Shown in pieces: positions 1 to 5,577 of a stretch of 64,000 bases of DNA; the first letter of the stretch is position 1; the number at the start of each line of letters is the position of its first letter. The stretch is taken from contig CALWHT010000023.1 of the NCBI GenBank assembly GCA_944380515.1, positions 49,703 to 113,702 of the forward strand, written 5' to 3'. This stretch comes from an uncultured Roseburia sp. (GTDB lineage: Bacteria; Bacillota; Clostridia; Lachnospirales; Lachnospiraceae). The translations under genes and the position numbers were made by a program. Below the pieces are notes generated by a model. That model was not told the DNA's origin and did no database searches. It saw only the letters and a program-made list of their open reading frames with translations.

Positions 1-679
1 GAAACAAATATACCCGTATCAGCGCCGCCTGAAAATGCATCCTTTCCAGGGAATCCTCCTGATATTCCGCAGAATAATGCAGACGCGTTTTCCTCCGCTT
101 CGCGTCAATTTCGCGCAGCGCCGCGGCATAACGGCTATCCGTTAAATCGTTCATCAATTTCAGCCAGATTAATTTAAAAGCAGGCGCAGAGCCAAACAGA
201 TGAAAATGATTGTCGGATATCCCCTTCTGCATGATACGGTTAAGCTGCAGATTATCGTGCCCGATAACCGTATCCCATGCAAATTCCTGCCAGGCCGGCT
301 GCCCTTTTTCCGTCCTGTATGCCAAAAACGCACAAATCGATAAATCCTCCCCGATAAAGCCCACAAGCTCTCTCCACTCCAACAATTTTTCGTAACGGCA
401 GATCGGCTCATTTTCCCTCACCAGCAGATAATCCTTCACCAGCTCCTTGAGCGCCCGGAAAACATTCAGCCCATTTTCCCCGCTGCCTTGCCCCAGGGAA
501 TTTTGAAGATAACGGTAAAGCCCTTTTGTCTCGGATTCTGTCAGATGCCGGAGCGTTCCCAACGCGAGCGCGTCAAATTCCTTTTCTGGAAATCTCCGAT
601 AGTCAAAATCCCCGCAAAGGATATTATGGGAGGAAACCTTCTGGAAATACATGGAAAGAATAATATTTAGATTATTCAT
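1..679 (-). CDS. rdrB: RdrB-like adenosine deaminase, N-terminal part (runs off left edge)
   Basis: This open frame was read by hand on the minus strand. It starts with ATG at 677-679 and has no stop before base 1, giving about 226 codons. The ATG overlaps the TGA of the upstream ATPase gene as ATGA, so the two are translationally coupled. Residues 154-164 read SDNHFHLFGSA, with H158 and H160 spaced like the first metal-binding HxH of the adenosine deaminase superfamily. About 150 residues of unassigned sequence precede it. RADAR RdrB proteins are large deaminases encoded directly after a ~900-residue ATPase, and this arrangement fits. In RADAR, RdrB deaminates ATP/adenosine species during phage infection. 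The rest of the active site lies outside the window, so activity is inferred from position and this motif. Another amidohydrolase is possible. Confidence 0.65.
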   Translation of the reverse strand, partial: MNNLNIILSMYFQKVSSHNILCGDFDYRRFPEKEFDALALGTLRHLTESETKGLYRYLQNSLGQGSGENGLNVFRALKELVKDYLLVRENEPICRYEKLLEWRELVGFIGEDLSICAFLAYRTEKGQPAWQEFAWDTVIGHDNLQLNRIMQKGISDNHFHLFGSAPAFKLIWLKLMNDLTDSRYAAALREIDAKRRKTRLHYSAEYQEDSLERMHFQAALIRVYLF

Positions 680-3369
680 GTACCCGCCTTCCTCTCCGTA
701 TCTTCCGGCAATACCTTAAACGATATGGCGCTCTTTAGGGCCGTGACCAGCATAGACGAAATGTTCACCCTGACCTCATCGTCTTTTATTGCACGGATCA
801 TTTTGATATAGGGACAGTTATCAAAATGTTTCGCATAGCCCGGTGCGTGTTTCTCCTCATCGTCCAGGTCTTTCACCGTATAAAAGTCATCCTCTGCCTT
901 CAGTTGACTTTCCACTACAGTGTATAAATCCTGAAGGCATACGAGCAGCTCTTCCTCACGGTATTTTTTCTTCGAGGCACTTCTCCTGGTTCTCTTCCAC
1001 ACATTATACGCCAAATCCAGATCATAAAACGGAAACGCAACTTCTGGCTCAAGGGAGGCTCCCTTACACTTTCCAAACTCCGATTCCTCCCGCAGAATTT
1101 CAGACAGAATGTCCTTTAAAATATCTTTCTGGGCAGCCTTCATTGAAAGATGCTCCGCAATTATGTCTGCCAGCCCCGAGGCAATATTGCTTTCCAGCCT
1201 TTCCTGTTCCCTCTGGTAATTTAAGGACTTTGTGACAAATCCCATGACATCCAGCTGCGCTTCCCCCGTCCCGCTGACTTTTATCACATATCTCTCCTGC
1301 ACATCAGCAGACTTTTGCGCATTCTTGTCATCGGCTTCGGCTTCTGTCTTTTTCTCATACTGCTGAATAACCGGAGCATATGCAAATTGATAATTGATTC
1401 CCTGATAGTAATCACCCTCCCGATGAACAAAAAGCATGTCCAGGCACTGCAATACCTCAAGCACATGTTCTTTGTTCATCCACTTGCCCAGTTCAACTTT
1501 CCACTTTTGTTTGTCCCCGGTTCTTCTGGTAAGGTTCTTCTTCCGCAAGTCTTCCAACCCGTCCAATTCAAACACTGTTTCCAGCTTTTCCAGCGATACC
1601 TCCCTGCTATAGCCAAGGCGTGTCGGACATGGGACATTATTGATTATGATATTGATTTCGGGCAGTGCCTGCCCGCACCATTCATTGGAAAAGGAACCTC
1701 CCAGAAAACCTGCCAGTCTTTTTCTGTACTTTTTCCTCCGTTCTTCATCAGGATTATAGCGCAGATGCAGATACTCCCGGACCATCTCCGAGGTAAAGGA
1801 TGCCAGCACACAGGAAATAAACGGCTTGTCATCTAGGTTCTCCCTGCCCCATCGATATATTTTTTCCAGCAAATCCCCATAGGCATATGGCTTCCCATCA
1901 ATATCACCAAATACAATGTTATCCTGGCTTCTGCTCATATTCACAAAATACATGGCACGTCTTTCAAGATCGCGATCCGCCAATTTTTCAAAAGCATCTC
2001 TACGGTCACGCAACAGACTATTCTGTGCTAAGCGAATCGAAATATCTTCATTGAATCTCTGATGATTTTGGTCGTAAGCACGCAAGATTTCCCGATTTAC
2101 TTCATTTTCCTCCGCATTCCCCCTATTGGTCAGCCCTGCATAATCCACGGCAACAAGCGATTCTAAAAACTCATTGTAGGCAACAAGGTCCCGCACCGTT
2201 TCCGTCTCACAAAAATGACGCTTCAGCCCGCACCCGTCATAATAGATATGCATAAGTTCCGCTACTTTGCACATAAGAAACGTCTTTACGGGCATATCAA
2301 TCCTTATTTCATTTTTATTTTTATCTTTATCCTTTTTCCTTATAACAATCTCAACCTGACTGCCCAGCTTTTTAATGTCCGGCATATACATTCTCTGGGA
2401 AAAATGAAACAGCTTCGTCATATAATCATTGGCTAAAGCCTTGCAATGCTGGTAAAGCCCGCTCTCCGGCACGTTTGCCAGATACGCCATTTCCCGCAGG
2501 AAATGCTCCTCACAGACCATCCGCATCTGGTTGTAATCCATCGTCAGCAGGATGATAAGCCTGTGATGTGAAAAGTACTTTTGCAGCTGTTCCAACATCT
2601 CGTATCCATGACGCAGATTTAAATCAAAATCATCAATGGAAATTACAATATATTCATAATCGGCTCTGCTTTTCTGCAAGTGCAGCAAATCATCAATAAA
2701 CTCTCCGATATTTTTCCGGACGTCATAACCGCTCGCCAAATGCTTCATCATCCCCGCAACCGACCAATTTCTTTTTTCTTCGTCATTCAAAGTGACAGAA
2801 AAATATCGCTCAAAAATAAGCCTCAGCCGCTCCGCCAGCTCCACTTTCTGCATGTCCGCCGCAAAGCCGCTCTCATTTCTTTCTCCCGCGAACGCACGGT
2901 AGATATTGACAAGAATCAGTTCAAATAAATCCTCCTTCTCTCCCAAAAGCGATGCGTCAATCGGGTCTAAAATGTGAAAATAAAATCTTTTTCCTGCCAG
3001 CGTCTCCCGCTTTCCTGCTTCCAACGTCAGAGCAAGCCATCTCTGTTTTTCTGCATCCAAGCAAAGAGAGCTTAAAATCCGGCAGAATTCCTCCATTGCC
3101 GTCGTCTTACCAGCGCCGCGGCGACCAATGAATGCAAGTATGTTCCTTTTTTCCCTTGGAATGAATCTCTTTTCATTTTCTTTTAAAAGCGCTTCTTCTT
3201 CCAGCGCCGCATCAAACAGCTCACGCAGGCCGCTCAGATAATTATTCTCATAGAAAGGATATTCTATCTCCCTGATTACCTGGAGACCGTCTTCTTTGCG
3301 CTCCTTGTATCTCTCCTCCCAGCCGGTTTTTATAATTTCCAGTTTTTTTGTATTCCCATGTAATTTCAT
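676..3369 (-). CDS. rdrA: RdrA-like P-loop ATPase of a RADAR-type defence operon
   Basis: This 897-residue protein carries a Walker A loop, GRRGAGKT, at residues 82-89 and a Walker B-like ISIDDFDLN at about 242-250. A long, mostly helical and charged C-terminal region follows. No signal peptide or membrane helix is seen. The size, the N-terminal P-loop and the coupled deaminase-like gene downstream match RdrA of RADAR, a large oligomeric ATPase that works with the RdrB deaminase against phage. The start is ATG 3367-3369, with AGGAGG six bases upstream. An 82-bp gap holding a terminator-like hairpin separates it from the TPR gene upstream. The family call rests on length, motifs and neighbours, without a profile search. 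A generic STAND/KAP-type NTPase is the alternative. Confidence 0.7.
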   Translation of the reverse strand: MKLHGNTKKLEIIKTGWEERYKERKEDGLQVIREIEYPFYENNYLSGLRELFDAALEEEALLKENEKRFIPREKRNILAFIGRRGAGKTTAMEEFCRILSSLCLDAEKQRWLALTLEAGKRETLAGKRFYFHILDPIDASLLGEKEDLFELILVNIYRAFAGERNESGFAADMQKVELAERLRLIFERYFSVTLNDEEKRNWSVAGMMKHLASGYDVRKNIGEFIDDLLHLQKSRADYEYIVISIDDFDLNLRHGYEMLEQLQKYFSHHRLIILLTMDYNQMRMVCEEHFLREMAYLANVPESGLYQHCKALANDYMTKLFHFSQRMYMPDIKKLGSQVEIVIRKKDKDKNKNEIRIDMPVKTFLMCKVAELMHIYYDGCGLKRHFCETETVRDLVAYNEFLESLVAVDYAGLTNRGNAEENEVNREILRAYDQNHQRFNEDISIRLAQNSLLRDRRDAFEKLADRDLERRAMYFVNMSRSQDNIVFGDIDGKPYAYGDLLEKIYRWGRENLDDKPFISCVLASFTSEMVREYLHLRYNPDEERRKKYRKRLAGFLGGSFSNEWCGQALPEINIIINNVPCPTRLGYSREVSLEKLETVFELDGLEDLRKKNLTRRTGDKQKWKVELGKWMNKEHVLEVLQCLDMLFVHREGDYYQGINYQFAYAPVIQQYEKKTEAEADDKNAQKSADVQERYVIKVSGTGEAQLDVMGFVTKSLNYQREQERLESNIASGLADIIAEHLSMKAAQKDILKDILSEILREESEFGKCKGASLEPEVAFPFYDLDLAYNVWKRTRRSASKKKYREEELLVCLQDLYTVVESQLKAEDDFYTVKDLDDEEKHAPGYAKHFDNCPYIKMIRAIKDDEVRVNISSMLVTALKSAISFKVLPEDTERKAGT

Positions 3370-3404
3370 TTTTCCCTCCTCATTTGTAGTTTTATTGTTT
3401 CAAA

Positions 3405-3451
3405 AAAATTGCACGTATACTACTTTAAATACTGTAATACCGTGCAATTTT
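3405..3451 (-). terminator. Terminator/attenuator-like hairpin between TPR gene and rdrA
   Basis: Perfect 11-bp arms (3405-3415 AAAATTGCACG and 3441-3451 CGTGCAATTTT) enclose a 25-base AT-rich loop. On the minus strand the second arm runs into a stretch of seven T residues. The hairpin starts right after the TPR stop codon (3452) and ends about 25 bases before the rdrA ribosome site. It therefore resembles an intrinsic terminator inside the operon and could reduce or condition rdrA-rdrB transcription. The long loop and AT-rich arms make it a weaker terminator than the one after flagellin. Confidence 0.55.
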
Positions 3452-4714
3452 CTAAGCCTGTTCCGCCAGTTTCAGATACTCATCTGCCTCTTTGGGCATA
3501 TCAATCTCCCGGTATGCCCTCGCAAGATACTGGTAAGCCTGCCTGCTGCTCATCTTCTTTTCCGCAAGCCCAATCATCTGCTCCGCTTTGTCCCCATACA
3601 TTTCGAAATAAAATCGGGTATACTGATTTTGCGTGCTTTTACCGCCATCTATGCCTTTTCGCAACTCGAGTGCCGCATTTGCGCTTAAAATAGCATTATA
3701 ATAATCCTTCTTTTCCAGATTAATATAGCACTTATGAATATTCACTTTAAACATATATTCCTGTTCCAGTGGATCCAGATAATTGCTCTTTCCCTCTAAA
3801 TATCCCAGACACTCATCAAAGCGCGCAAGCGCCTCTATCCACTCCTTTTTCCGGTAAGCGCTTCTTGCCAGCTTATAGGTGTTACGGTACTTTGGCATAT
3901 AGCCATGTGCTTTCCGATATATCTCATCCGTCTCTTCTTCTAAAAACTCATACTCCTCACAGCGTTTGCCCAACCAATAGTAGACGCTGTACATATACTT
4001 TTTTCGCCCTTCCTGCTTTAAGGCACGCTGAAACGCATCAATCGCATCCCTGGTATAGGTTTTTGAAATCTCATAAATAAAGCCCAGCAACACCCAGCCA
4101 TTGGAAAAATCCGGGAAATCGTCCAGAAAAGCCAACCCCTCGGCCGCCAGTTCGTTTACATAATATACAACCGCTTGTTTGTACAAATACTTCGCCAAGT
4201 TCGCTTTTTGCTTGCAAAACATCCTTGCATACCGCATATGGCAATTATTCTCATAAGCAGGATTTTTCTTTATGATATCCACAAGGTCGTCAGCCGCGTT
4301 CTCAAACCGCTTTCCTGCGTCTTCCAGGACTTCTTTCATAGCCGGTTGATCTGTGATTGCCCTGAAATACTGTAAATTTACTCCTGCCTGCAATAGCCCG
4401 TGCTTTAAAAAGATTTCTTCCAGCTTTTCATAGCATTCTTCCAACGCTGTTTGTGAAATTGCATCCTGCAGCTTCTGATGCAAGATGCCCAATTTCTCAC
4501 GCTGATCTGCCGCTTCCGGCAAATCCTCTGACAGAATCTCATATCTGCCGGTACATTCTGCATCTGTTTCTATTTCTGCCACTTTATCGGAATCTACCGT
4601 TTTATTATATTCATACACATAAACACCAGCCAATCGCAAAAACTCTGCGAAGAGCTGGTAGTCCATCCGTCTGTCATTTTCGTATGATAATTCAACTGAT
4701 GCAAACTTGTTCAT
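3452..4714 (-). CDS. TPR-like helical protein of the RADAR-type operon, unknown role
   Basis: About 421 residues, with no signal peptide or membrane segment. From about residue 100 to the end it is built of helical pairs with TPR-like spacing. Examples are the stretches around AFQRALKQEG, RFDECLGYLEGK, AILSANAALELRKG and the end AYREIDMPKEADEYLKLAEQA split over two helices. The N-terminal 100 residues are acidic and unassigned. I chose ATG 4712-4714 because GGAGAG lies just upstream; the frame could open at a TTG five codons earlier. It sits between the membrane protein gene and rdrA in the same direction. A TPR protein is not a component I know from described RADAR operons, so a scaffold, sensor or regulator of the ATPase/deaminase pair is inference only. 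Confidence 0.6.
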   Translation of the reverse strand: MNKFASVELSYENDRRMDYQLFAEFLRLAGVYVYEYNKTVDSDKVAEIETDAECTGRYEILSEDLPEAADQREKLGILHQKLQDAISQTALEECYEKLEEIFLKHGLLQAGVNLQYFRAITDQPAMKEVLEDAGKRFENAADDLVDIIKKNPAYENNCHMRYARMFCKQKANLAKYLYKQAVVYYVNELAAEGLAFLDDFPDFSNGWVLLGFIYEISKTYTRDAIDAFQRALKQEGRKKYMYSVYYWLGKRCEEYEFLEEETDEIYRKAHGYMPKYRNTYKLARSAYRKKEWIEALARFDECLGYLEGKSNYLDPLEQEYMFKVNIHKCYINLEKKDYYNAILSANAALELRKGIDGGKSTQNQYTRFYFEMYGDKAEQMIGLAEKKMSSRQAYQYLARAYREIDMPKEADEYLKLAEQA

Positions 4715-4830
4715 AGGCACACTCTCCAAGTTCCTGAATGGACTCTCTAGTCTCTATTAGTATATTAAACAACTAATAAAAAATGTTTGTCCACCACGTC
4801 CTGAAATTATTCTTCTCTGTTTCAGAGCTT

Positions 4831-5496
4831 TTATGCAGATTTGCTCATACTTTCTTCGTTTGGCTCCAAGTGCTTCTGTATGAACCAATCAGCCGCATAC
4901 TCTTCTTTCTTCCAGTAATTTTTCCTCCACCGTCTAAGAAATGCCGCCGCAAGCACTATCCAAAGCACAAAATGTTTGTTGTAGCACACAATACCTGACA
5001 CAACCGTTACAAACGCCATATTCTTACAAATCAAAGCCGCCGAGGCATAGTTATGAATCCTCGAATAGGTCTTGTCCGCCTGAATTTCACTGTAAATATA
5101 TGTAGAATATTTTGCGACCTTTTCCTGCAGTGCGGCTGAATCACCCCCGGTCTCTGCCGTCTGTACTGATGTAAAATCTTTAAAATCAGCTATTCCCGCA
5201 TTCCCAAGTGCCAGTGCCAGCCGCTCATAATATAATTTCAACGGATTCCCACATAAAAACCAGCTTGTCCTCTTTATAGATACGCTTAATATGAAATCTG
5301 TGACTTCCGATATTGCGATTCCAAGAACATAACCAAACAATATGATTGCCCCGACAAGGTATCCTGCATACGAGGTGAACAGCTTATTGCCCAGAGCAAT
5401 ATTTTCTGTATTGAACAACAAAATGATAAGCATACAACTACCCGGCACCGCATAGCCTAATAAGTCATATAATGTCATCTTTTGCAAAACTTCCAT
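4831..5496 (-). CDS. Four-helix membrane protein, first gene of the RADAR-type operon
   Basis: This 221-residue protein has two hydrophobic segments near the N-terminus (about 14-31 and 40-66). A polar region of about 90 residues follows, with a second hydrophobic pair at about 158-195 and then a charged tail. No export signal other than the helices is seen. Some RADAR operons are described as carrying an extra membrane protein of the Csx27 or SLATT type, and a helix pair-loop-helix pair layout in this place is consistent with that role. I could not match a specific family by eye. A strong sigma-A promoter lies 50-80 bases upstream, so this is the first gene of the operon. About 116 bp separate it from the TPR gene. 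Confidence 0.55.
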   Translation of the reverse strand: MEVLQKMTLYDLLGYAVPGSCMLIILLFNTENIALGNKLFTSYAGYLVGAIILFGYVLGIAISEVTDFILSVSIKRTSWFLCGNPLKLYYERLALALGNAGIADFKDFTSVQTAETGGDSAALQEKVAKYSTYIYSEIQADKTYSRIHNYASAALICKNMAFVTVVSGIVCYNKHFVLWIVLAAAFLRRWRKNYWKKEEYAADWFIQKHLEPNEESMSKSA

Positions 5497-5548
5497 TCAA
5501 TCACCCCGCTGAAAGCACATCATCCAAACATAAGCCCTGCTTGTCCCA

Positions 5549-5577
5549 ATTATACTACATGTGATAAATTGGGGCAA
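5549..5577 (-). promoter_or_regulatory. Sigma-A promoter of the RADAR-type operon
   Basis: On the minus strand, TTGCCC (5572-5577) and a consensus TATAAT (5549-5554) are separated by exactly 17 bases. The predicted start of transcription is near 5542, giving a leader of about 45 bases before the membrane protein ATG. The upstream flank is AT-rich. Confidence 0.7.

Follow-up and report, generated by a model that had tools for sequence, protein, structure and literature searches.

A tetratricopeptide repeat gene, apparently inherited as a constant part of one RADAR branch, beside rdrA–rdrB in an uncultured Roseburia

Does a RADAR locus that carries two further genes ahead of its ATPase and deaminase genes represent a subtype of its own, or do the extra genes merely adjoin a known system? 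The question is raised by a minus-strand gene cluster at the left end of a 64,000-nucleotide (nt) stretch of DNA (the window) from an uncultured Roseburia sp. (contig CALWHT010000023.1 of assembly GCA_944380515.1; G000:C23:49703-113702 in our numbering), whose genome comprises 3.07 Mb in 66 contigs. A sequence-only reading had proposed a RADAR-like operon here, with a membrane protein and a tetratricopeptide repeat (TPR) protein preceding the core genes in the same direction. All four genes are present on the minus strand, in the order membrane protein (221 amino acids (aa)), TPR protein (420 aa), RdrA (897 aa) and RdrB (833 aa), followed by JetD–JetA–JetB–JetC. Taken as a whole, including the roles proposed below for its parts, the explanation that we favour, with moderate confidence, is that the locus is a distinct RADAR subtype, 'TPR-RADAR', made up of a membrane accessory, a TPR protein, RdrA and RdrB. 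Judged from sequence, what appears new is the TPR protein as a constant extra part of an otherwise known RADAR; an earlier description of the gene may exist.

The identity of the core rests on several models. The window ATPase (676..3369, minus strand) is recognised by the RdrA models of NCBIfam (E = 2.4e-20) and PADLOC (2.8e-12), which score far better than the best Pfam family (AAA_22, 6.5e-5), and the assignment to RdrA rather than to another NTPase family is therefore upheld. Moreover, a 10-row RdrA profile matches three distinct solved RdrA sequences (8hr7, 8fnt and 8fnu) at 2.8e-23 to 8e-18, with the next chain at 0.024. The protein carries GRRGAGKT at residue 82 (Walker A) and ISIDDFD at residue 243 (Walker B). 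Its gene overlaps rdrB, which begins at 679, by 4 nt (ATGA), and the adjacent order of rdrA before rdrB is kept in relatives that have both genes on the contig. The adenosine deaminase gene rdrB is cut by the window edge after its first 226 codons (1..679, minus strand); the contig continues to the left, so the whole gene could be read (L003:13382-10881, in the extracted locus L003). It encodes a complete 833-aa RdrB in which the deaminase residues are present: H158, H160, H522, E525, H554, D781 and D782 do not vary among 10 aligned RdrB sequences. The E. coli counterparts are given as H152, H154, H498, E501 and H530 (PMC9994260), and the spacing between the last two histidines is 32 in both proteins. 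RdrB is likewise matched by the NCBIfam (6.2e-59) and PADLOC (1.3e-39) models and by the solved RdrB 8fnw (8.7e-28). The proposal that an 897-residue P-loop ATPase coupled by ATGA to a deaminase-like gene with an HxH motif forms an rdrA–rdrB core thus stands.

The window proteins share with the RADAR systems of E. coli, C. rodentium and S. suis the coupling of an AAA+ ATPase gene to one for a large ADA-fold deaminase, the same metal and catalytic residues, and recognition by the RdrA and RdrB models and solved structures. They differ in being very diverged, in the addition of a constant TPR partner, and in a locus of four genes, whereas RADAR is described as a two-gene system (PMC9994260). Neither protein reaches its NCBIfam equivalog cut-off (RdrB, 200.3 of 800 bits; RdrA, 72.6 of 600 bits). 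This cut-off governs naming and does not define RADAR, because the RdrA proteins of S. suis and E. coli share less than 20% identity and S. suis RADAR is nonetheless protective (PMC9994260). On these comparisons, we regard RdrA and RdrB as complete members of the RADAR family. As a separate observation, six RADAR loci (five from Bacteroidota and one fusobacterial; L063, L072, L075, L080, L081 and L085) have rdrA as two open reading frames (ORFs), an ATPase of 310–333 aa and a second of 472–696 aa with a gap of at most 3 nt, reflecting either a real two-subunit RdrA or frameshifts.

The TPR gene (3452..4714, minus strand) encodes 420 aa from an ATG, or 425 aa from a TTG further upstream. The protein is modelled as a TPR superhelix behind a short β-α-β-β start, has an LGN-type match, and finds no match in PADLOC. 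To the eye, the N terminus resembles a TIR domain, most strongly in L052 and in the second of the L043 copies (FISYSS, FISYNS). A TIR domain was nevertheless rejected: none of 36 members gave a Pfam TIR match at E ≤ 0.01, nor did L052 at 0.5, and the window model has only the short β-α-β-β start.

The linkage of this gene to rdrA was assessed in 299 evenly drawn genomes of the family, the window's own genome among them. With the window protein alone as the query, matches were found in six genomes, and all six adjoin rdrA; with a 36-row TPR profile, seven genomes matched below 1e-100, again all adjoining rdrA. The next match, at 4.7e-9 the sole other within 1e-8, is a 466-aa ORF; judged from ORF starts alone, its surroundings show no RADAR gene. 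In the other direction, rdrA was matched in 11 genomes, and the TPR gene is present in seven of the nine clear ones (chance 9e-13), two marginal genomes with internal stops (5.6e-4 and 5.7e-4) being left out of the nine. Across 398 genomes of the phylum, a 7-row profile recovered the window's own genome at 3.2e-160 and matched 21 of the 397 others, the best at 4.5e-7; from the proteins alone, these weak matches look like generic TPR proteins. Because few candidates were scored per genome (at most five with the 36-row profile and at most four in the phylum search), a weak true relative could be missed in either sample.

A wider set of loci gave the same picture. Among 84,980 species genomes, 343 RdrB relatives were found, of which the best 80 matches to the window RdrB were kept, so distant RADARs are under-sampled; together with 10 loci from the family sample, 90 loci were examined, six duplicates being dropped from trees and counts. 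The TPR protein occurs in 36 distinct loci (37 proteins, E < 1e-70), as counted with a profile that was iterated on its own matches. In 35 of them the gene lies directly upstream of an rdrA of more than 700 aa, at gaps of −68 to 171 nt; the 36th carrier, L113, has a split rdrB and an rdrA that seems interrupted. The TPR gene is therefore conserved beside rdrA in relatives, both in the seven strong family matches and in these 35 loci. A further TPR hit, in L054 (E = 6e-25), is a protein with predicted membrane segments, encoded downstream of rdrB at a RADAR locus that falls outside the carrier clade. It was not taken as the same family, although it is labelled TPR in the RdrB tree, which brings the tabulated count there to 36 where the clade has 35.

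The distribution of the gene follows the phylogeny of the core. In an RdrB tree of 82 rows, the TPR family occurs only within a single group of 39 rows, 35 of them carriers, and in none of the other 43 rows. The four non-carriers in this group are contig-edge or damaged loci: besides L091, which is taken up below, the contigs of L079 and L098 end inside rdrA, and in L038, close to the contig end, similarity is lost immediately upstream of rdrA. An RdrA tree of 70 rows places all 35 carriers together in a group of 36 (branch support 83), the exception again being L038. Rows with an RdrB of 800 aa or less or an RdrA below 700 aa were left out; the RdrB tree came from a quick search and the RdrA tree from FastTree, and both are midpoint-rooted and carry long-branch warnings (among them for L029, L055, L052 and L073). 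Most of the named carriers belong to Lachnospiraceae; Eubacteriaceae and Oscillospiraceae are also represented. Pairwise distances over 35 loci correlate at 0.73 for TPR–RdrA, 0.61 for TPR–RdrB and 0.54 for RdrA–RdrB, with none of 2,000 permutations as high for any pair, and mean identity over the loci is 0.21 for the TPR protein, 0.24 for RdrA and 0.40 for RdrB. These results indicate that, in one branch of RADAR, the TPR gene is a constant component passed on by descent.

The same data bear on a rival explanation, in which the locus is Csx27-associated RADAR and the TPR protein acts as a chaperone for expression or assembly, taking no part in sensing or signalling. TPR folds serve generally as scaffolds for assembly, which, with the LGN-type match and the finding that TPR distances follow RdrA most closely, would suit such a chaperone; moreover, Csx27-associated RADAR is an already described subtype (PMC7699616). 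However, the TPR protein is as diverged as RdrA itself, which would fit a fast-evolving immune component better, and its strong matches lie beside rdrA only. We consider the chaperone explanation rather unlikely.

The genes that accompany the TPR–rdrA–rdrB unit are less uniform. The window's membrane protein (4831..5496, minus strand) on its own matches the PADLOC Csx27 model at E = 0.001 and scores 12.1 bits with the NCBIfam Csx27 model, whose cut-off is 65. All eight aligned members of its family match PADLOC Csx27 at E ≤ 0.01 (best 4.2e-11), and on these family matches, together with an AlphaFold2 model, we assign it as a distant Csx27 relative. The all-helical model has four long helices, in line with the four-helix protein proposed earlier, at a moderate mean predicted local distance difference test score of 76.9, whereas a crude hydropathy scan finds only three. 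That membrane accessories are known for RADAR is borne out for the Csx27 kind, and standalone, Csx27-associated and SLATT-associated RADAR have all been described (PMC7699616, PMC11676413). The window locus resembles Csx27-associated RADAR in combining RdrA–RdrB with a small Csx27-type membrane protein, and differs in the distance of that kinship, in the added TPR gene, and in a membrane gene that stands first or last.

In other genomes, the part of the four-gene order that recurs is the TPR gene beside rdrA; the membrane gene varies in kind and position. Among the 36 carrier loci, a Csx27-like gene is found in nine, a SLATT-like gene in 10, a fused Ham1–SIR2 gene in two, and SIR2–STALD–TIR and SIR2–nSTAND genes in one each. 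The Csx27-like gene is first in L003, L025 and L026 and last in L027, L037, L040, L041, L046 and L086. No carrier locus has both membrane types, against 2.5 expected (chance 0.033, a weak figure because kinship is ignored). The label 'SLATT-like' is a tentative one based on sequence: Pfam SLATT_1 matches two of nine and DUF4231 five of nine members, and PADLOC gave no SLATT or RADAR match for this family. Its gene is present as two ORFs in L065, inside a longer ORF in L093, and upstream on the opposite strand in L055; unclassified membrane genes precede the TPR gene in L049 and L057. A three-domain SIR2–STALD–TIR protein, like a fused Thoeris, is encoded just downstream of rdrB in L036 (L036:11585-13600) and in L038 (L038:5620-7641), where the TPR gene is unseen. 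This protein and the SIR2–nSTAND protein of L059 may belong to separate defence systems and were not counted as RADAR parts. Separately, at a RADAR locus lacking the TPR gene, a macro-domain protein is encoded 11 nt beyond rdrB (L096:4892-6253).

The SLATT-like genes raise another alternative: the subtype would be the SLATT-associated rdrABCD of 2020, with the TPR gene as its fourth gene, and hence one already known. In a commentary, rdrAB, rdrABC (Csx27) and rdrABCD (SLATT) are listed (PMC7699616), and 10 of the 36 TPR-carrying loci have a SLATT-like gene. However, that commentary does not say what the fourth gene is and contains no TPR or tetratricopeptide wording, PADLOC has no match for the TPR protein, and a 2024 review mentions no extras other than SLATT or Csx27 membrane proteins (PMC11676413). 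The TPR gene may already have been drawn in Gao et al. 2020 as part of the commentary's 'rdrABCD'. A word search found no such wording in PMC9994260, PMC10952713, PMC12948488, PMC11676413 or PMC7699616, and no paper joining RdrA/RdrB with a TPR protein was found in the open literature, in a search that did not cover Gao et al. 2020 or the second Cell 2023 RADAR paper. We therefore judge it improbable that the gene is the fourth gene of rdrABCD.

The fused Ham1–SIR2 genes offer a possible view of what an accessory does. They lie at L043:6762-8246 and L052:3804-5192, ending 28 nt and 59 nt, respectively, upstream of a TPR gene, which is followed by rdrA (cut by the contig end in L043). The two fusions are 52% identical, and a two-row profile of them matches KomC at 8.9e-59 and KomB at 6.2e-32. 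Where human ITPA has VEDT, L052, L043 and KomB have VEHT; the Asp replaced by His is the residue that we take to be catalytic in the human enzyme. The His mutated in the KomC(H146N) structure is retained in both fusions. In Kongming (KomA–KomB–KomC), dITP binds KomB and the NADase activity of KomC is thereby activated (PMC12948488; KomB and KomC are also named in PMC12774641). The fusions are thus like Kongming, in L043 and L052 only, in the Asp-to-His change of KomB and the conserved His of KomC. They differ in that KomB and KomC are one protein and in that the adenosine deaminase of the locus is RdrB, as seen in the L043 and L052 ORF lists, with no search aimed at KomA; the window's genome is without such a fusion, giving no match to it at E ≤ 1e-15. 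The review treats Kongming and RADAR in separate sections (PMC12948488).

In published work on other RADARs, RdrB converts ATP and dATP to ITP and dITP on infection, and the RdrA–RdrB assembly is required (PMC9994260). The position of the KomB–KomC fusion just upstream of the TPR gene suggests that (d)ITP made by RADAR can act as a signal, so that RADAR may also send a chemical alarm. In the mechanism that we propose, the TPR superhelix would bind RdrA, probably acting as a scaffold or sensor adaptor, and the variable accessory (Csx27-like, SLATT-like or fused KomB–KomC) would serve as an output or anchoring module. At the KomB–KomC loci, (d)ITP made by RdrB would be read by the Ham1 domain, which would switch on the SIR2 NADase. 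A bolder version is put forward only tentatively: ITP or dITP made by RdrB would be both a poison and a second messenger, infection would be coupled to RdrA through the TPR protein, and the exchangeable accessory would be a killer gated by (d)ITP or by the complex.

Several observations weigh against TPR-RADAR as set out here. The fusion is found in only two of the 36 carrier loci, and these two have closely related RdrA proteins (the nearest to that of L043 is that of L052); no rdrA genome in the family sample has it. The window's own Csx27-like accessory is linked to (d)ITP by analogy of position only. Furthermore, 13 of the 36 carrier loci have no recognised accessory, a SLATT-like gene lies near a TPR-less RADAR in L107, and L091, a member of the RdrB group of carriers, has a full flank and no TPR gene, though its rdrA is in two ORFs. 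The RdrA–TPR correlation may reflect plain co-inheritance rather than contact. Finally, a terminator-like hairpin (−17.4 kcal/mol; 3405..3451, minus strand) followed by a T run separates the TPR gene from rdrA in the window, so the four genes may not share a single unbroken transcript.

Such hairpins, taken as −8 kcal/mol or lower with a T run, occur in nine of 18 TPR–rdrA gaps of at least 25 nt and in five of 82 other same-strand gaps of 25–200 nt (Fisher p = 3.2e-5); L064 is borderline at −8.6, and the 17 of 35 loci with shorter or negative gaps were left out. Their sequences differ from locus to locus, and they could reflect attenuation of, or a separate start for, rdrA–rdrB. The single consensus promoter proposed for the four genes exists as a sigma-70-like candidate upstream of the membrane gene (TTGCCC-17-TATAAT, 10 of 12 matches, 5577-5549, minus strand), which may or may not drive all four. 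The match proves little, because many such sites are also found in shuffled sequence (26 of that quality on both strands of 9.2 kb, compared with 15.3 (s.d. 4.0) in shuffles). The hairpins, together with a membrane gene that may stand at either end of the locus, would fit TPR and membrane genes that form an independent defence or regulatory unit merely adjoining RADAR. We consider this very unlikely: no strong TPR match occurs without rdrA in the family sample, only the window's own genome rises above the generic TPR level in the phylum sample, the TPR gene overlaps rdrA or lies less than 25 nt from it in 17 of 35 loci, and the family is restricted to one clade.

The KomB–KomC query gave further observations outside the RADAR loci. 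Within 1e-15 it matched two of the 299 genomes, neither of them an rdrA genome: one has separate KomB- and KomC-like genes and the other a SIR2 region only. Separate KomB- and KomC-like genes lie amid purine-synthesis-like genes at L149:6914-8304 (G278), with no RADAR seen in that stretch from ORF starts. The two Ham1-domain ORFs of the window's genome keep the Asp (DDSG and CDSG); the CDSG one, at G000:C29:23087-23473, is a second match besides a housekeeping-like one, with no SIR2-like gene around by eye.

The surroundings of the window locus hold other candidate defence genes. Directly after rdrB on the same strand lies a complete type III Wadjet operon (L003:10791-2990), with best PADLOC E values of 4.2e-120 (JetD), 2.5e-260 (JetA), 1.4e-125 (JetB) and 0 (JetC). 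Wadjet type III (JetABCD) is a separate system that has only the island in common with RADAR here. On the other side, at window 7547-6863 (minus strand), a nucleotidyltransferase gene (NTP_transf_2, 1.3e-12) overlaps a HEPN-like gene (NTase_sub_bind, 6.7e-26), a pair that, from these matches, looks like an MNT–HEPN toxin–antitoxin module. A glycosyltransferase gene adjoins the island, and the RADAR loci of L029 and L113 adjoin flagellin-like genes (by eye, from ORF starts); such surroundings are possibly an insertion hotspot.

If the tentative signalling version were true, RADAR and Kongming would be two arrangements of one inosine-nucleotide signalling logic. The trigger of RADAR was called unclear in a 2023 structural paper (PMC9994260), and a third protein that is constant throughout one branch, and whose variation follows that of the ATPase most closely, offers a concrete candidate for the sensor or adaptor that is missing. 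With the KomB–KomC fusions beside RADAR, it could in turn be tested directly whether the inosine nucleotides made by RADAR serve as an immune signal too.

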